From: Paludibacter sp.
GTDB lineage: Bacteria > Bacteroidota > Bacteroidia > Bacteroidales > Paludibacteraceae
Length of the DNA: 47,253 nt
NCBI GenBank assembly: GCA_027450045.1
Contig: DAIDKM010000018.1
Coordinates: forward strand, 1-47,253
Direction: 5' to 3'
Of the stretch, positions 1,388 through 22,636 are shown piece after piece (the first letter of the stretch is position 1; the number at the start of each line of letters is the position of its first letter). The translations under genes and the position numbers were made by a program. The notes beneath the pieces are model-generated. The model was not told the origin of the DNA. It saw only the letters and a list, made by a program, of their open reading frames with translations, and did not search any database.

Positions 1388-2290
1388 CTAATAGCATCCG
1401 ATGCATTCTTGTCCACGGAAGAATCGATAGACAATCATCAATTCGTGTGACCCTATGGAACTCCGACTGATTCCGCCAACAGAATAATCATAACTATATG
1501 ACAAAAAGAGGGATTTGCTTAAATTAATTCCGGCAATGAATCCCATTTCACTGGAGGTACGATAAAAAACACCTAATTGAAACAAGTCCGATTGATCGTC
1601 TGCCTTAAAATAGGTAGTAAAGTTCAGTTCGAGTTGACGCTGGTTTTGAACCTGAATACCGCATCCACCTAAGCCGAAATCAAGTGGTTGCTGGGTATAA
1701 TCCCGATAGATGACGTAGAGGTAATTAATGTTCGTTTGAAGATCTCTTTTGGGGAAAAACAGCGAAAAAATATTTTGACTGGATGCTCCGAATCGCAACG
1801 CTTTGCTTGCTAATTCTGTCCCAAGATCGGCATTATAATGATTGACTCTCACTAATTTCTGATAGATGAAAGGATCGCTTTGTGTATCAACACGCACTTT
1901 AGAAGGATCGTAGGATAAACTTTCAAAACTGGCAGCAACACCAAGATGCAACCGCCAATAGTCATTGAGTATGACGGCATAGGCATAAGAAAGCGCAATA
2001 TTAGCGGTTGTAGTGTATCCAATATTATCGGAGAAGGCTTTCACTCCAAATTGAGTGTGCATGTGATCGAGATAAAGAAGGCCTGAAGCAAAAAAGGTGG
2101 TTGGTGCACCAGGGAAGTGGATCCATTGCTTTCGGGCAGCCATGCTTATCACACCGGCATAGCTGCTATTAATGGACGACGGGTTAATGTAATATGTATT
2201 GTCCCAATAATCGTTTATATGGATGCTTGTTTGCGCATGTCCCGAAATCCATGCTATGGAGAATAGAAAAAAGAAGATGTACTTTTTCAT
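1388..2290 (-). CDS. PorP/SprF-family type IX secretion membrane protein
   Basis: This 300-residue protein starts with a clear signal peptide (MKKYIFFFLF... ending GHAQ) and continues as an amphipathic beta-rich outer-membrane protein. Features typical of PorP/SprF proteins are a small-residue-rich start with NPSSINSSYAGV, a FASGLLYLDH stretch and a C-terminal SIGSHELMIVYRF strand. Members of this family accompany T9SS substrates that carry a type B C-terminal domain and help anchor them at the surface. The adhesin with exactly such a domain lies directly upstream on the same strand, with only 110 nt between the two. An in-frame extension to 2350 exists, but it would run through the conserved leader and would bury the signal peptide, so the ATG at 2290 is preferred. 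Confidence 0.85.
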   Translation of the reverse strand: MKKYIFFFLFSIAWISGHAQTSIHINDYWDNTYYINPSSINSSYAGVISMAARKQWIHFPGAPTTFFASGLLYLDHMHTQFGVKAFSDNIGYTTTANIALSYAYAVILNDYWRLHLGVAASFESLSYDPSKVRVDTQSDPFIYQKLVRVNHYNADLGTELASKALRFGASSQNIFSLFFPKRDLQTNINYLYVIYRDYTQQPLDFGLGGCGIQVQNQRQLELNFTTYFKADDQSDLFQLGVFYRTSSEMGFIAGINLSKSLFLSYSYDYSVGGISRSSIGSHELMIVYRFFRGQECIGCY

Positions 2291-2399
2291 CTGATTGCGT
2301 TTAATTCGTACACTAAGGACAGATGGAACTCCATGACAGCCGATCATCATTTCCTTGTGTGTTTAAATTAATAGTCCTGTTCGTTTCATCTGATTGCGT
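2285..2399. repeat. 16-bp direct repeat flanking leader copy 2
   Basis: TTTCATCTGATTGCGT occurs at 2285-2300 and again at 2384-2399, exactly 99 bp apart. On the gene strand, one copy covers the PorP start codon and the other covers the first codon-like ATG of the leader box A. Confidence 0.85.
2322..2390 (-). promoter_or_regulatory. Conserved paired-box 5' leader, copy 2
   Basis: Minus-strand box A (GATGAAACGAACAG, 2390-2377) faces box B, whose pairing blocks are CTGT (2339-2336) and GAGTTCCATC (2331-2322). The pairs are GATG/CATC, an A-C mismatch, AAC/GTT, tandem GA/GA and ACAG/CTGT, with CATG (2335-2332) bulged. ACAG/CTGT replaces the RCATG/CATGY pairing of the other copies, a compensatory change. 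The box starts about 10 nt after the adhesin stop codon and ends 32 nt before the PorP start. Confidence 0.72.
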
Positions 2400-2400
2400 A

Positions 2401-5400
2401 TTACCGGAGAACAGTCACATATCCGACTTTCGTTTTTGATCCAGTGGGGGACATATAATATAACACATAGAAATAGGTATCGTTAGGAACCATTTCACCA
2501 TGATATGTACCATCCCATCCATCGGTTCCATCATACAGAAGCAACCCGTTTCGATTGTACACCTTGATATGCCACCCTTTCATAAAAATATCATTGATGC
2601 CATCTCCATTGGGAGTAAACGTATTGACTTGGTTATCATTCACAATCCAAATGCGTTTCGTGGCAGTTTCAACACAACCATAGGGACTGATCACATGTAA
2701 CTGAATATCATAATAACCTTCTTTGGTAATAGCGTATGTATGGACTACATCTGCCCCTTGCGCTGACTGTCCATCGCCAAAATTCCAAAAGTATTGCGAA
2801 AAAGGAACCGACTCGCTCCAAACATGCAGTTGGGGATCACTTGTAGTTACCTCCGTTCGATCGGTCTGGATGGTGTAATGAAACAGGCCAAAATAGGATG
2901 CCGTGAACTGCAAAGTATTAGTACAGCCTGCTAAAGAGGTTCCGATAACGCTGTAATCGCCTGCTTTTTTAATAACAAGACTATCGCCGGTTGTCCCGTT
3001 ACTCCAGAGGTATGAGTTTGCTCCCGATACGTGAATTGTCACAGAGTCTCCCTCACATAATTTGGGTTCTTTGTCAATAGATAAGATAGGTAATGATTCG
3101 ACGGTGATTGTGTTTTTGTAAATGCTACTACACGATGGGGTAGTTATAGTTAATTGCACCGCATAGTTTCCCGGATTAACATAGCGATGTTGAGGGCTTT
3201 TCTCCGTTGACGTAGTACCATCACCGAAATCCCACAGGTAGGTAAATGTACCACTTATTTCGTTAACAACCATCGCATTAAATTGGAAAAGATGCGTATT
3301 ACAATCAATCAATTGATCCGTTATCCCTGTTTCAGGAATTGTAACCTGGAATGAATAACTCATTGTGCAACCCAGCGTATCCATCACTTGCAGAGTTACC
3401 ATTCCACTCTGAGAAGTTGTCATAATCTCATTGTTGGCTCCACTTACTTTTCCTCTCGACCATGTAAATTGATAGGGAGGCATTCCTCCTGTGACGTTTG
3501 CAGTACAAATAGCAGTTACTTGCTTCGTAGCACAATTGAAATCATCGGTAATGGACATGTTAACAGCAAGCGGAGATGGACGTTTTACTTCGTATATAAA
3601 CGTTGATGAGCAGCTTAGCGAGTCCGTTATAGACACGGTATAAGTTCCGGCCTGTATACGGGTTAAATCTTTTGTGGTGGCTCCATTCGACCATACATAG
3701 CGGTAGGGAGGCGTGCCACCTGTCACTACTAAACTAATTGCACCGCTATTCGGATCATTGCAGACAAGAGCATCTTGTATTAAGGCTGATGCCTCTAAAG
3801 CTGGTGGTTCTACAATCACAAACGTGCGGGTAATATCGCATGGAGAACCATCGCTGATGGTTGCGGTATAGGTTCCAGGCCCTAAATTATTACGGTTGGT
3901 TCCTGATGTAGCGCCATCGCTCCAGATAACCGAGATAGGGGTTCCGCTAACATTGAGATGGATACTTCCGTTTTGTGCACCATGGCAAGTCACATTGGTT
4001 ACGGTCGGATCAATCATAAAAACAGGCGGTTCCTGCAGATTAATTGAGACGGTTTTTTGACAACCGTTAGCATCGGTAACCGTGATAACATAATCCCCAC
4101 CCGACAGATTGTTTTGGTAAGTACCGCTTGCGAGATTACTCCATGTTTCCTGATAAGGTGGAACGCCACCCGAAATTTGCAACGAAATGGAACCATTATT
4201 CGATCCATAACAGGTAATTGGCGTGGTATTGGCAATCACACTGAGTGCGGAAGGCTGGGTAATAGTGACTGTCAGAGTATCGAAGCAGCCCGATTGATCT
4301 GTCACGGTCAGTGTATATATTCCGGCAGAAATCGAGTCAATGTTTTGGAGATTGCTAATAAAGCCATTAGGCCCTTTCCAAGAATAGTTATAATTAAACA
4401 CCCCGGGAGATGTTTCAAACGGTGTTCCTCCTGTTGCGTTAACAGCGATAGCACCTGTTGCAGAACCATTACACAAAACATTGGTCTGATGAATTAATGC
4501 GACTGTTAAAGGGGTAGGTTCTGTAATCGTATAGTTTGCTGTTGCCGGCGTACAACCCACACTGTCGGTTACGGATACACTATAGTTTCCCGGCTCCAGA
4601 TTAAACAGGTTTTGAGAAGTTGAAAAGGGGGTATTGTTCTTCATCCATGAATAATGATAATTTCCAGCTCCACCTGTTACTGAAATGGAAATTGATCCGT
4701 TGGCTTCGCCAAAACAAGTAATGTCTTTTTGAATTGCAGTGTCAATGACAATAGCAGCAGGCTCTGTCACGGTATAATTGGCTGAAAAAGGACACCCACC
4801 GGCATCATCTACAGAAAGAGTATAAATCCCGGGTGCTAATCCTGTGATGGTCGGGGCGCTCGAGGCAAATCCATTAGGTCCCGTCCATATAATTTTATAA
4901 GGTGTGCCAGAGCTAAAAGGTACTCCTCCGGTGATCTGGGTTTGAATGGCGCCGTTGTTGGCTTCATAGCAAGTGCTATTGGTGATGGTAACGTTTGGGT
5001 TGATCGATGGATTGACTGTAATAATTACATTAAAATCGCTGCCCGCACAAGAACCGGAAATTGGCGTGACGGTGTAGGTAACCGTTGCCGGACTGTGGGT
5101 GGTGTTGATTAATGTTTGACTAATTGATGACTGAGGAGCCGATTGTGCAGAAGCCCCGTTGATTGAACCTGCCGGATTGACAACCGGCGTTGACCAAGTA
5201 TAGGTTGTTCCAAAAGGTACGATATCACCACCAACAGAGTCTGGCAAAATGACAAAGGCTTTTCCACTGCAAATGACTGTGTTCTTTGATGATATAACCG
5301 GAATTGGTTGTATCGTCACTTGGGCAATATTCGATATCATGGTGGAACATCCACCTGAAGATAGCGTGATGATGCAATAATAATAAATGGTGCCAACGTT

Positions 5401-15774: not shown

Positions 15775-16791
15775 ATGAAAAATATGACAGTTGATACCGT
15801 TTGCCATTGGATGGAAGAAATAGCGCCTCTGTCGTTACAAGAAAACTACGACAATGCAGGACTACAAATAGGAGATCGCAACTGTGAAGTGACGGGGGTT
15901 TTACTAACTCTCGACGTAACGGAAGCGGTAATCGACGAAGCCATTTCAAAAAAATGCAACCTTATTATCGCACATCATCCATTGTTGTTCAAAGGATTAA
16001 AACAAATCACAGGGAACAATTATGTACAACGATGCGTCATTGCTGCTATTCGCAATAACATCGCTATTTATGCTGCACACACCAATATGGATAATATTGC
16101 CGCTGGTGTAAGTCAAAAAATGGCCGAAAAATTAACTCTTCAACATTGCCAAGTTTTATCACCACGTACTGATCAACTATTTAAACTAATCACGTATGTA
16201 CCTCTATCGAAATCTGATGACGTGCGGGAAGCCCTCTTTAAAGCTGGAGCCGGAACGATAGGCAACTACGATGCCTGTAGTTTTAATGCCGAAGGAATTG
16301 GAACTTTTCGTGCCAATAAAGGCGCTCATCCCTTTGTTGGCAATCTTTATGAGCGGCACCATGAAAAAGAAACACGCATTGAAGTTATCGTATCAGCTTT
16401 TCAGCGAGCAGCCATTGAAAAAGCGTTGCTTGAGACTCACCCATACGAAGAGCCGGCTTACGATTGGATTCCGCTCCGAAATCGATCATCACAGATTGGA
16501 CTCGGCATTGTTGGGAATCTTACTGAACCTGAAACCGAAAAAGCTTTCTTACAACGACTAAAAGAGACATTTTGTCTGTCAGTGATTCGACATACACCAT
16601 TTTGTGGAAAACCTATTCAAAAAGTAGCTCTTTGTGGTGGGTCAGGAGCTTCGCTACTGCCGGCTGCACTTGGGACACAAGCTGATATTTACATAAGCGC
16701 GGACTTCAAATACCATGAATTTTTCGACGCTGACAATCGAATTATCATCGCAGACATTGGACATTATGAATCACAGGGAAAACGCTTTTAG
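15775..16791 (+). pseudogene. Nif3/YbgI-family metal-binding protein, 3' end cut by an IS
   Basis: The 338-residue open frame is a Nif3-like dinuclear-metal protein (YqfO type, with an inserted domain). Metal-ligand motifs H67-H68 in IIAHHPLLF and H102-x3-D106 in AHTNMD are intact. The C-terminal GHYES motif (H330) is followed by Gln-Gly-Lys-Arg-Phe-stop, encoded by the left end of the ISAs1-type element. In the uninterrupted gene the next residue is Glu, giving the HYESE metal-ligand pair. Removing the IS and one target repeat restores a 367-codon frame. The ATG at 15775 is chosen; a TTG-initiated extension to 15745 overlaps the previous gene. Whether the truncated product still folds is unknown. 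The biochemical role of this family is poorly defined; annotations as GTP cyclohydrolase type 2 are not well supported. Confidence 0.9.
16764..16773. repeat. Target-site duplication, left copy
   Basis: TTATGAATCA abuts the left end of the IS and is repeated exactly at 18012-18021 on the right side. Ten base pairs fits the 8-10 bp reported for ISAs1-family elements. Confidence 0.95.
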
Positions 16792-18011
16792 ATATTCAAG
16801 ATTTTTTCTCTGTAACTATCATCAAGAGCAGCTCTTTTCATTTTTAGTTTCTTGGTACTATTAAAGTCTGTTTGGTTGCTTATTAACCCCAACGCTATTT
16901 TGCGGATGATATTGAAATTCTCGGCAGAATAGCCTTTTCTTTTAAGCTGATTGTCTTCATTCATTACCACATCCAGGGTCCAATGTAATTTGTTTTCAAT
17001 GCCCCAATGACTTCTGATAGCATCTCCCATTTTACTGGCATCTAACTGTTTGATGGATGTAATATAATGACGTTCCTCTTGACTTGTAATACCGGTTTTC
17101 TTTATTGTCCGTTTGGCAGTAATGCGTACAAGAGCACTGATTCCTTCCCATTGGTCTTTATTGTCCAAGTAATCCAGGTTGGTTATAACCTCGCAATATC
17201 GTTCTTCAATTCTACCATGGGCAAATTCATACTGCCTATGAACCGACACGGGCTTCTGTACTTTAAATGTCGTTTTTATTTGTTGATGCAACTCTTGCTG
17301 ATTATCCTTGACCATCAGAATATAATCAGCCTCTTGTTCCAATATTTTAGAGGCTATCTTTTTCTGACAACCCATTGCATCAATAGTTACGATGCAGCCC
17401 TTTATGGCGATTAATTCCAATAATTCCGGAATGGCTACGATCTCATTCGATTTATCCAATACTGTTTCTTGCCCTATGCTAAGATTGTTCTTATTACAAA
17501 ACGCTGTTACAATGTGCAATTTACTATTGCGTAAATTGGATGCTGCGCCTCGTATTGTTTTTCCATCAATAGAAACTACCCTGTCGGGGCATAAGTCGGC
17601 TATCGAATTTACCCAATTGATAAAACAAATATTGAATTGTTTGGTGTTCAAATTGTTAAAAACTCTATTGATAACATCGTGTGAAGGTGTTCCATTCGCA
17701 TAGGGGAAGTATTTACGAAGCCATTCCAATTTGTTTTCTCCAAAGAATGCAATCTCTTCCCAACCATCAAAACCACTGATGACTGCCGATATGGTTAGAA
17801 AAAGTATTTCTTCCAGGGGATAAAGATAATTGCCCTTTTTGATTCTGCGGGGGTCTTGCAAGGTTGAAAAATGAGACGTGAATAGAAGGCAGTTATCACT
17901 AGATTTAAAAGAATTTGTCATTTTTTTTTATGGCAGAAAGTGCTGCCTAAATGACTATTCAAAGATACTGCATTTCTTATATCCCACAAAATCTTAAAAG
18001 CGTTTTCCCTG
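16774..18011 (-). mobile_element. ISAs1-family insertion sequence (1238 bp, complete)
   Basis: The element is bounded by 17-bp perfect terminal inverted repeats: CAGGGAAAACGCTTTTA at 16774-16790 and its complement at 17995-18011. A 10-bp target duplication flanks it. It holds one intact DDE transposase gene that fills nearly all of its length and runs antisense to the disrupted Nif3-family gene. Perfect repeats, an intact transposase and an undegraded host gene remnant on both sides point to recent insertion. Confidence 0.96.
16788..17921 (-). CDS. ISAs1-family transposase
   Basis: This 377-residue DDE transposase has the N-terminal DUF4372-like LQDPRRIKKGNYLYPLEEILFL start typical of ISAs1/H-repeat-associated proteins. 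The catalytic triad is visible as D in SIDGKTIRGA, D in TIDAMGCQ and E in SHWGIENKLHW. The stop codon lies inside the left terminal inverted repeat. The gene is full length, with no frameshift, so the element may still move. Confidence 0.95.
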   Translation of the reverse strand: MTNSFKSSDNCLLFTSHFSTLQDPRRIKKGNYLYPLEEILFLTISAVISGFDGWEEIAFFGENKLEWLRKYFPYANGTPSHDVINRVFNNLNTKQFNICFINWVNSIADLCPDRVVSIDGKTIRGAASNLRNSKLHIVTAFCNKNNLSIGQETVLDKSNEIVAIPELLELIAIKGCIVTIDAMGCQKKIASKILEQEADYILMVKDNQQELHQQIKTTFKVQKPVSVHRQYEFAHGRIEERYCEVITNLDYLDNKDQWEGISALVRITAKRTIKKTGITSQEERHYITSIKQLDASKMGDAIRSHWGIENKLHWTLDVVMNEDNQLKRKGYSAENFNIIRKIALGLISNQTDFNSTKKLKMKRAALDDSYREKILNI

Positions 18012-19961: not shown

Positions 19962-19969
19962 TACCTTTG
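19962..19969 (+). promoter_or_regulatory. Predicted promoter (-7 box) for the MgtE-like/Nramp operon
   Basis: TACCTTTG matches TAnnTTTG. Transcription would begin near 19977, leaving about 120 nt of 5' UTR that contains the alternative hairpins at 20031-20092. Confidence 0.6.
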
Positions 19970-20030
19970 CAGCGAAATTTTAAAATGATATTCCTCATGG
20001 ACGATGGCCCGGCGAACAACTTAGTATTAA

Positions 20031-20092
20031 CTTGCGTTTAGCAAGGAAGCCGCATCGCATTCGCTTCCTTCTAAACCCCTAACAGAAGGAGG
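20031..20092 (+). promoter_or_regulatory. Candidate two-state translational leader (metal operon)
   Basis: Three pairings compete. (1) CTTGC/GCAAG (20031-20035 with 20041-20045). (2) A long stem of GTTTAG and AAGGAAGC (20036-20050, C20042 bulged) with GCTTCCTT and CTAAAC (20063-20076). (3) TCCTTCT (20066-20072) with AGAAGGA (20084-20090), which hides the SD site GAAGGAGG (20085-20092). Pairing 2 frees the SD and pairing 3 sequesters it, as in translational riboswitches. Location ahead of a divalent-cation transport operon suggests a metal signal. It does not look like an M-box or a yybP-ykoY element to me. Confidence 0.5.
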
Positions 20093-20097
20093 CACTT

Positions 20098-21372
20098 ATG
20101 ACTTCTCTCACTACCTTTTATTTAAGCAGACTCATTGGATGCAAACTGTTTGATGCCCGCGAAAATGTGCTAGGTATTATTCTGGATGTTTATGTTCAAC
20201 TTCCAATGAACAATATCGAAATCGACAATGCACAACGACCCAAGATTATCGGTTTTTACATCAAGCAACAGAAAAAACGCTTGAATGTCACCTTGACCAA
20301 TGTACAAATTGTAAAGTTCAACACCCATTACAAAGTGCAATGCCAGGCTATGACCGAAGTCTCTTCTGACACACTTAGCAATACCTTTTTGTTGAAAGAA
20401 ACCATTCTCGATAAACAAATTGTCGATATCAATGGCAGAAAATTAGTACGGGTGAACGATGTACGGATGGTGGCGCTCTCATCAGGCGCTTTTGTAGTGG
20501 CTGTTGATGTAGGACTTGAAGGATTGCTGCGACGCATTGGCATTCACCCGCTTATTAAAGCCATCCTGCAACTCTTCGGCGGAAAGACCCCTTCTAAATT
20601 TATTCTGTGGGATGATGTGGAGGCCATCGATTTTGCCACGTTAAACATCAAACTCAACACGCCATTTACCAAACTCAACACGCTTCACCCGTCTGACTTA
20701 GCCGATATTATAGAAGACTTGGGGAAAGACTCAAAAACTTCAGTCTTTTCTTTATTAGACGAAGAGACTGCGGCTGATGTACTCGAAGAACTCGAGTCCA
20801 AAGAGCAAGTGCATATCATAGAAAGTCTTTCCATTGAAAAGGCAGCTGATGTGCTTGAAAAAATGCCGGCTAATGAAGCGGCAGATTTGATGGACAACTT
20901 AGAAGAAGAAAAAGCCCAACAACTGCTTGAAGAAATGGAGTCTGAAGCATCAGAAGAAGTAAGAGATTTGCTTGAATACCCAGACTCGTCTGTGGGCAGC
21001 TTAATGACGACCAACATATTAACTTTTCAAGAGACACAAACCATTGCCGACGTTATTGAGTTCATTAAAGCAGAACAACCGGAAATGGAATCACTTTACA
21101 CCCTCTTTGTTGTGGATGAGCACAATCGGTTGTCAGGCACATTCACGATGCGTGACTTGTTGATCGAGTCACCCGACACACCATTGACGGAAATCATGAA
21201 TTCTAACACTAATCAGGTCAATGATTATGATCGACTTGATTCTCTTTCGGAAATCATTTCCAAATACAACCTCTTGGCCGTTCCTGTCACCAATGAAAAT
21301 GAAGAACTGGAAGGCATGGTAGTGGTTGACGATGTCGTTGACGATTTATTAGGCAAACGTAGAACCATGTAA
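20098..21372 (+). CDS. MgtE-like regulatory protein without membrane domain (PRC-barrel, MgtE_N, CBS)
   Basis: This 424-residue protein is cytosolic. Residues about 1-165 look like two PRC-barrel-type beta units (LIGCKLFDARENVLGIILDVYV and QIVDINGRKLVRVNDVRMV). Residues about 195-300 are an MgtE N-terminal superhelical domain made of repeated LxPxxAADxLExL helices, very rich in Glu. Residues about 300-420 form a pair of CBS domains (SLYTLFVVDEHNRLSGTFTMRDLL and AVPVTNENEELEGMVVVDDVVDDL). In MgtE these domains sense Mg2+ and gate the channel, but the five-helix channel domain is missing here. An Nramp-type transporter follows 16 bp later, so this is probably its soluble gate or sensor. The start has a strong SD, GAAGGAGG, 5 nt upstream. 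Confidence 0.88.
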   Translation: MTSLTTFYLSRLIGCKLFDARENVLGIILDVYVQLPMNNIEIDNAQRPKIIGFYIKQQKKRLNVTLTNVQIVKFNTHYKVQCQAMTEVSSDTLSNTFLLKETILDKQIVDINGRKLVRVNDVRMVALSSGAFVVAVDVGLEGLLRRIGIHPLIKAILQLFGGKTPSKFILWDDVEAIDFATLNIKLNTPFTKLNTLHPSDLADIIEDLGKDSKTSVFSLLDEETAADVLEELESKEQVHIIESLSIEKAADVLEKMPANEAADLMDNLEEEKAQQLLEEMESEASEEVRDLLEYPDSSVGSLMTTNILTFQETQTIADVIEFIKAEQPEMESLYTLFVVDEHNRLSGTFTMRDLLIESPDTPLTEIMNSNTNQVNDYDRLDSLSEIISKYNLLAVPVTNENEELEGMVVVDDVVDDLLGKRRTM

Positions 21373-21388
21373 TAAAGGAGGAGTATTT

Positions 21389-22636
21389 ATGGTATTGAAG
21401 AAAACGAATCGGAAGACTATTTTTAGCAGCATTGCAATTTTCCTCGCTATTTTAGGGCCGGGTATCATCACAGGCAGCGTAGATAATGATGCGGGAGGCA
21501 TCACCACCTATTCAGTCGCCGGCGCCATGTACGGCTACCAACTTCTTTGGACGCTGATACCGTCGTTTGTCGTTCTTTTAGTAGTACAAGAAATGAATGC
21601 CCGTATGGGTATTGTCACAGGAAAAGGCTTAGCAACGCTCATACGCGAAAACGCCGGCGTAAAAGTCACATTTTTTATTTTTATGGGGCTACTACTTGCC
21701 GACATTGGGAACACCACCACGGAATTTGCAGGCGTTGCCGGTAGTTTAGAAGTGTTTAATGTAAGTAAGTACATTTCAGTTCCGTTAGTGGCTTTCATCG
21801 TTTGGATTTTGGTTGTGAAAGGGAATTACACTATCGCTGAACGCATCTTCTTGATTTTCAGCGCATCATTATTAGTATATATTATTTCCGCATTGATGGG
21901 ACATCCGCAATGGAGCGAAATAGGCCATTCAATCGTTCGTCCCCGCATGGGAATGGACGACACAACGCTTACGATGGTACTGGGTATCGTGGGAACCACC
22001 ATTGCTCCATGGATGCAATTTTACATGCAATCGTCGGTTATTGAAAAAAAACTTAAGATTTCGCAATACAACTACGTGCTGCTCGACATTATTATTGGGT
22101 GTGTTGCGACTATTACAGTAGCCTTTTTCATCATCATTGCATGTGCATCAACGTTGCACACGAATCATATCGTGATTAACGAAGCAAAAGATGCAGCCTT
22201 GGCGCTTAAACCGCTTGCAGGGGAATTTGCATCGCAAGTGTTCGCATTCGGACTTTTCGTTGCATCCATTTTTTCTGCTGTCATTTTACCATTGGCAACG
22301 GCCTTTTATGTCTCCGAAGCATTCGGATTTGAAGCAGGTATCGATAAAAAATGGAATGAAGCCCCCGAATTTTACGTGCTTTATACCGGCATTATCATAC
22401 TTTCCGCAGGCATCATCCTGATTCCCAATGCACCATTAATAGGAATCTCACTTTGGTCGCAGGTCATTAATGCCGTCTTGTTGCCGGTTGTCCTGGTGAG
22501 CATGATGCTCTTGGTCAACAAGAAAAAACTCATGGGAGTGTACACAAACAAACCCATTGTGAATATCATTGGCTGGATCACCGTTGTCATCTTGGTTGCC
22601 ATGTCATTTATGATGATAGTAGCGCCATTTTTCTAA
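21389..22636 (+). CDS. Divergent Nramp-family divalent cation transporter
   Basis: This 415-residue inner-membrane protein has about eleven hydrophobic segments. The Nramp fold is indicated by LGPGIITGSVDNDAGG in the first helix and VLGIVGTTIAPWMQFYMQ in the sixth. Canonical Mn/Fe Nramps have DPGN in helix 1 and a Met-Pro-His in helix 6; here these are DND and Ala-Pro-Trp. Loss of the metal-binding Met is a feature of Nramp-related Mg2+ transporters, so a hard-ion substrate such as Mg2+ is the inference. The gene has a strong SD (AAAGGAGG) and is 16 bp downstream of the MgtE-like sensor. A terminator follows. Confidence 0.88.
   Translation: MVLKKTNRKTIFSSIAIFLAILGPGIITGSVDNDAGGITTYSVAGAMYGYQLLWTLIPSFVVLLVVQEMNARMGIVTGKGLATLIRENAGVKVTFFIFMGLLLADIGNTTTEFAGVAGSLEVFNVSKYISVPLVAFIVWILVVKGNYTIAERIFLIFSASLLVYIISALMGHPQWSEIGHSIVRPRMGMDDTTLTMVLGIVGTTIAPWMQFYMQSSVIEKKLKISQYNYVLLDIIIGCVATITVAFFIIIACASTLHTNHIVINEAKDAALALKPLAGEFASQVFAFGLFVASIFSAVILPLATAFYVSEAFGFEAGIDKKWNEAPEFYVLYTGIIILSAGIILIPNAPLIGISLWSQVINAVLLPVVLVSMMLLVNKKKLMGVYTNKPIVNIIGWITVVILVAMSFMMIVAPFF

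Follow-up and report, generated by a model that had tools for sequence, protein, structure and literature searches.

A putative Mg2+-responsive leader peptide upstream of MgtE_N–Nramp operons in Bacteroidales

The experimental precedents for the leader described here are the enterobacterial leader peptides mgtQ and mgtL, whose acidic and proline-containing N-termini respond to low Mg2+ (PMC8092293; PMC11282234). Salmonella mgtQ is an 8-aa upstream open reading frame (uORF) between mgtC and mgtB in which Asp2 and Glu5 are needed, and stems 1:2 and 3:4, as opposed to 2:3, set access to the mgtB ribosome-binding site (RBS; PMC8092293). For mgtL, the leader of mgtA in E. coli and Salmonella, finished translation represses and drop-off of the ribosome at low Mg2+ induces, through Rho-dependent transcription termination (PMC11282234). 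In other phyla, operons that join an MgtE fragment to NrmT are under the M-box (ykoK leader) Mg2+ riboswitch (PMC4072509). Bacteroidia ribosomes are reported not to recognise Shine–Dalgarno (SD) sequences in general (PMC9976891), and in the transcriptome of B. thetaiotaomicron some long 5′ untranslated regions contain small open reading frames reminiscent of leader peptides (PMC7366714). Our literature search returned no description of such leaders in Bacteroidota or of the control of Mg2+ uptake in Bacteroidales.

We analysed a 47,253-nt stretch of Paludibacter sp. DNA (the window) and observed, there and in its relatives, a conserved uORF, mutually exclusive helices and an in silico dependence of their folding on ribosome position, associated with genes for predicted Mg2+ transporters. 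The leader probably attenuates translation through a Mg2+-responsive leader peptide, in the manner of mgtL and mgtQ. Its features of the mgtL/mgtQ type, found in silico, are a short uORF, an acidic/Pro start and ribosome-dependent exclusive stems. Like mgtQ, it has Asp2, with a Pro and another acidic residue close to the start, and a translational four-arm logic for access to a transporter RBS, in which incomplete translation is predicted to mean ON. Unlike the leader in the window, mgtQ is enterobacterial and intergenic, has a strong SD before it, and has region 1 inside the frame and arm 2 downstream of it. Here, a promoter-proximal uORF without an SD has its stop codon on arm 2, with MgtE_N–NrmT, CorA and MgtE as targets. 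The mgtL peptide also has an acidic/Pro start (EPDP), and the same logic is predicted here, but with SD masking in place of Rho-dependent termination and with one conserved Pro. The downstream genes differ from mgtA and mgtB and the peptide is very short; we do not claim common descent. The M-box precedes the same operon type and presumably reads the same signal, but does so as an RNA aptamer. Autoregulation of rpsU in Bacteroidota likewise makes rare use of a very strong SD; the gene differs, and the accessible part of that source does not describe a uORF or alternative stems (PMC9976891).

A conserved uORF before the transporter operon

The features of the leader and operon in the window are as follows.

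19962–19969, forward strand: Bacteroidota-type promoter −7 element TACCTTTG, a match to TAnnTTTG
19997–20041, forward strand: SD-less uORF for the leader peptide MDDGPANNLVLTCV, its start conserved in 96 leaders
20002–20013, forward strand: region 0 (uORF start), paired with 20049–20057 in the ribosome-free minimum free energy (MFE) structure; own-versus-swapped pairing test
20031–20045, forward strand: hairpin 1:2 (20031–20035 with 20041–20045), containing the uORF stop codon (20039–20041); sequence and folding
20036–20076, forward strand: anti-sequestering stem 2:3 (20036–20050 with 20063–20076), 14 bp, one bulge
20063–20093, forward strand: SD-sequestering stem 3:4 (20063–20072 with 20084–20093); folding
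20084–20092, forward strand: strong SD AGAAGGAGG, −12.2 kcal/mol in the window
20098–21372, forward strand: gene for a PRC-barrel/MgtE_N/CBS protein (Pfam MgtE_N 3e-25, CBS 3e-15, PRC 1e-4)
21389–22636, forward strand: Nramp-family gene, NRMT-like, predicted Mg2+ transporter (Pfam Nramp 2e-95)

A preliminary description of this leader had overlooked the uORF, which comprises 14 codons, has the nucleotide sequence ATGGACGATGGCCCGGCGAACAACTTAGTATTAACTTGCGTTTAG and terminates within the 5′ arm of the long stem. Conservation among the leaders does not extend to an in-frame ATG at 19985. Seven congeners contain the leader, four of them with the peptide MDDGPANSTKVLTCD, and the differences are synonymous (GAC/GAT, GGC/GGT, AAC/AAT) or an in-frame 3-nt insertion; the nearest named relative, a metagenome-assembled genome called Paludibacter sp., has an MgtE_N protein that is 98% identical. 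Searching the family and the order with the PRC-barrel/MgtE_N/CBS gene gave 38 distinct loci, and all but one (37/38) carry an ATG uORF starting MD..P, 93–126 nt before the gene. Among named contigs with upstream sequence, 72 of 77 have it, two as MDEGEP/MDESEP; the five without it are L165, three loci labelled Verrucomicrobia or Deltaproteobacteria, and a Peptococcaceae-labelled locus, L210. The uORF also occurs outside the order, in a further family of the class (L222–L224), and elsewhere in the phylum (L114), and is absent from the more distant L115–L122. Pattern searches for the uORF alone return mostly chance matches in coding sequence.

With identical copies removed, 96 leaders of the orthologous PRC–MgtE_N–CBS/Nramp operon remained. 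Their uORFs start M-D-[D/E]-[G/D]-P about 104 nt before the gene, with variation that consists of synonymous and D/E changes. Asp2 and Pro5 are invariant in the 94 leaders with Pro at position 5, in which residue 3 is acidic in 86 (D 52, E 34) and residue 4 is mostly G (61, using all four Gly codons) or D (21). The peptides are 9–23 aa long with a variable tail. The loci throughout were drawn as best matches, and percentages hold for those samples. Third positions are unusually fixed at two codons of the 94 leaders (GAC in 84/94 at Asp2, GCG in 66/69 at Ala6), which suggests an RNA-level constraint on top of coding.

The promoter that had been placed at 19962 is of the Bacteroidota −7 type and is conserved: 80 of 96 leaders have TAnnTTTG in the 70 nt before the uORF, mostly 25–27 nt from it, and this near-fixed spacing argues against a transcription start downstream of 20076. 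A sigma-70 promoter scan gave no match, as expected for Bacteroidota. The SD of the main gene has a median of −12.2 kcal/mol in the orthologues, compared with 0.1 for 184 other ORFs, and the uORF is SD-less (median 0.4 kcal/mol).

The Nramp protein carries VDN-DAGG and GT-TTIA-PW, which by eye match the signature of NRMT-type Mg2+ transporters, DxxG in helix 1 and TxxA/T in helix 6 (PMC8806188). We therefore predict an NRMT-type Mg2+ transporter, its uptake specificity being read from sequence; the Mg2+ reading is weakened by one MgtE-fragment-linked NrmT that has been classed as a Mn2+ transporter (PMC4072509). This second gene of the operon has a strong SD of its own (AAAGGAGGAG, window 21374–21383, −11.7 kcal/mol); in about one relative in three it is likewise strong. 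An intact-looking ORF whose translation reads like an ISAs1-type transposase lies two genes upstream of the operon, on the minus strand (16788–17921).

Exclusive helices and the position of the ribosome

The three helices of the preliminary description can all be read off the sequence. In the long stem, GTTTAG(C)AAGGAAGC pairs with GCTTCCTTCTAAAC, C20042 being bulged. The 7-bp SD stem, 20066–20072 with 20084–20090, turned out to be the core of a 10-bp helix with one G–U pair, which is part of the MFE structure. The small hairpin pairs CTTGC with GCAAG (5 bp). The relations claimed between them also stood: the long stem and the SD stem both use 20063–20072 and are mutually exclusive, and the small hairpin competes for the 5′ arm of the long stem.

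Folded alone, the 136-nt leader is moderately more stable than chance (z = −2.0; 10 of 200 shuffles equally stable), so a single sequence is insufficient proof of a switch. The homologue and covariation search that the preliminary description proposed supplies what one sequence could not, because both helices are conserved over the 96 leaders. Stem 2:3 covaries in a subgroup of 16 sequences, in which it is 93% paired; its covariation score, which 5 of 500 shuffles reached, lies far above that of slid controls. RNAalifold on A2 displays the core of the SD stem only, two exclusive helices at once being beyond what it can show.

We folded each leader while a ribosome footprint covered either codon 5 or the stop codon. 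The SD core pairs with the upstream leader with a probability of 0.71 without a ribosome, 0.45 with one at codon 5 and 0.87 with one at the stop codon, and the expected number of 2:3 pairs is 2.5, 6.6 and 0.05, respectively; across leaders, this constrained folding lets stem 2:3 form with an early ribosome and blocks it with a terminating one. When the spacer is shuffled with dinucleotides kept, SD pairing is 0.52 at codon 5 and 0.45 at the stop, and the effect of ribosome position is gone (real versus shuffled spacers, p about 6e-17 in a test that treats leaders as independent, which is not fully true). SD accessibility drops once the P site is beyond about codon 10. With this simple model, a clear effect is missing in 31 of 96 leaders, and the ON state of the window itself is only partly favoured, hairpin 1:2 plus the SD stem competing with it. 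SD pairing to the upstream leader proved a better measure than ‘SD unpaired’, which gives a weak effect. Finally, in nrmT and mgtE leaders the uORF start prefers the downstream loop of its own leader to loops taken from others (p=0.001 and <0.0005, respectively), and the same own-versus-swapped test is not significant in corA leaders. This pairing of region 0 may account for the GAC and GCG preference at codons 2 and 6, and would hold untranslated RNA OFF.

These results suggest the following course of events, in which we infer translation of the uORF, ribosome abortion or drop-off, Mg2+ as the signal and the direction of control. The SD-less uORF would be translated first. With ample Mg2+, the ribosome would clear the destabilising N-terminus M-D-D-G-P and arrive at the stop codon, where it would cover the 5′ arm of stem 2:3, so that stem 3:4 would form and hide the operon SD (OFF). 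At low Mg2+, it would pause or fall off at the acidic/Pro start by intrinsic ribosome destabilisation, and such early loss would leave the 5′ arm free for stem 2:3 and expose the SD of the MgtE_N–Nramp operon (ON). Without a ribosome, pairing between the uORF start and the stem 2:3 loop would be favoured and the SD would be mostly hidden, so that ON would require a ribosome that starts without finishing. That Bacteroidia ribosomes largely ignore SDs (PMC9976891) counts against SD masking as the output.

Other Mg2+ transporter genes and rival explanations

As a control, we sought such uORFs before unrelated genes. Only 1 of 184 other genes has one, and that gene is corA; a looser MD[DE] rule finds 2 of 389, one of which is a full-length mgtE. 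The corA match prompted a survey across the order, in which an MD[DE] uORF occupies the same position at 27 of the 30 best corA loci (for example, MDDYHPER, MDDSNPR... and MDEGPYHS...), although Pro is not universal (MDDYYQRN). Full-length mgtE is preceded by acidic uORFs at 18 of 30 loci examined in Bacteroidales, nearly all with Pro5 (MDEGPY, MKDDPY, MEEDPY, MDDVP). The ribosome-position effect is present in both sets (p about 1e-6 each). In all, a short uORF before a predicted Mg2+ transporter gene is found in 96 nrmT, 28 corA and 22 mgtE leaders. The best indication that the signal is Mg2+ is this recurrence of one leader design at three unrelated families of Mg2+ transporter.

Several further loci bear on the range of this design. 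An acidic uORF, hairpins and a strong SD occur together before corA (L264–L293) and full-length mgtE (L324–L353, L034–L037); the genome of the window itself yielded no CorA. That genome has a second copy of the leader and uORF (L019, 1533–1577, and L020) before a gene for an OprB-like porin (1863–3143; G000:C7). A separate leader in another family (MDEGPATRLLTVSMER, L096/L262) also precedes an OprB-like porin, and in one genome (G064) a porin gene directly follows the MgtE_N–Nramp operon; this porin is possibly an outer-membrane route for Mg2+. On the reverse strand of L238, an ATG uORF (MDEGPERTLHEFF...) begins 29 nt downstream of a TACTTTTG element and overlaps the start of full-length mgtE in a different frame; it may be a different uORF arrangement or chance. 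A CorC/DUF21-like gene, judged by translation, itself starts MDDDP (L242), perhaps by coincidence or as a use of the motif within a gene.

The preliminary description had seen in the leader the layout of a translational riboswitch or other metal-sensing leader. The translational on/off switch before a divalent-cation transport operon stood, and the ligand-binding riboswitch was set aside because the conserved sequence is a set of uORF codons rather than an aptamer, a leader-peptide attenuator being the better match. Exclusive stems before a metal-transport operon, and a ribosome-free RNA with structure of its own, would suit an RNA that itself binds Mg2+ or another divalent ion and picks a stem, with the uORF incidental. 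Yet the conserved letters are codons with synonymous variation while stem and loop sequences drift freely, and even a minimal aptamer would need conserved non-coding residues, so that we regard such a riboswitch as very unlikely. Rfam searches at gathering and relaxed thresholds found no family match for the leader, and the yybP–ykoY and NiCo covariance models gave none at either threshold; the M-box model (RF00380) matched neither the window nor 20 sampled Bacteroidales leaders, in keeping with the earlier impression that none of the three is resembled. As a positive control, the M-box model scores 101 bits, a full M-box, before the Firmicute-labelled relative of the operon in L210, which also favours Mg2+ as the signal. 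That locus has the M-box (2569–2727) and then (2839–2916) an acidic/Pro uORF (MEADPYSTC...) with a terminator-like hairpin; together they may form a tandem Mg2+ control whose leader peptide acts on transcription.

An attenuator for some other signal, such as a shortage of an amino acid or charged tRNA, EF-P or EttA status or a ribosome-targeting drug, is unlikely, if less so than a riboswitch: any cause of early stalling suits the logic of uORF and stems, and acidic/Pro motifs also respond to EttA and EF-P (PMC11282234), but the uORF has no run of codons for one amino acid, its tail varies, the downstream genes encode Mg2+ transporters of the CorA, MgtE and NRMT types, and L210 has an M-box instead of the leader. 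Lying 41–71 nt before the gene, the uORF could serve mainly for translational coupling or re-initiation and set a constant expression level; we give this very little credence, as the distance is long, a conserved anti-sequestering stem over the stop codon would be superfluous, and the effect on folding of an early ribosome versus one at the stop is far above shuffles. Equally improbable is that control lies mainly in the unusually strong SD, which a subpopulation of ribosomes lacking bS21 would read, with the stems only tuning it. The gap in SD strength between the main gene and other ORFs, the SD-less uORF and the preference of bS21-free ribosomes for strong SDs (PMC9976891) favour it, but the conservation of the M-D-[D/E]-x-P codons and the ribosome-position logic are left unexplained; such control may add to the attenuator instead of replacing it.

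A broader picture seems somewhat more probable than not: a widespread Mg2+ regulon in Bacteroidales, in which independently evolved, promoter-proximal acidic/Pro leader peptides would act through SD masking on MgtE_N–NrmT, CorA and MgtE and, at some loci, on an OprB-like porin, with the SD-less uORF and the SD-dependent gene read in two modes. A leader class before three unrelated transporter families would extend the use of ribosome stability as a Mg2+ sensor well beyond Enterobacteria, perhaps by convergence, and would, if true, offer a clear example of an SD being masked in a phylum regarded as largely SD-free.
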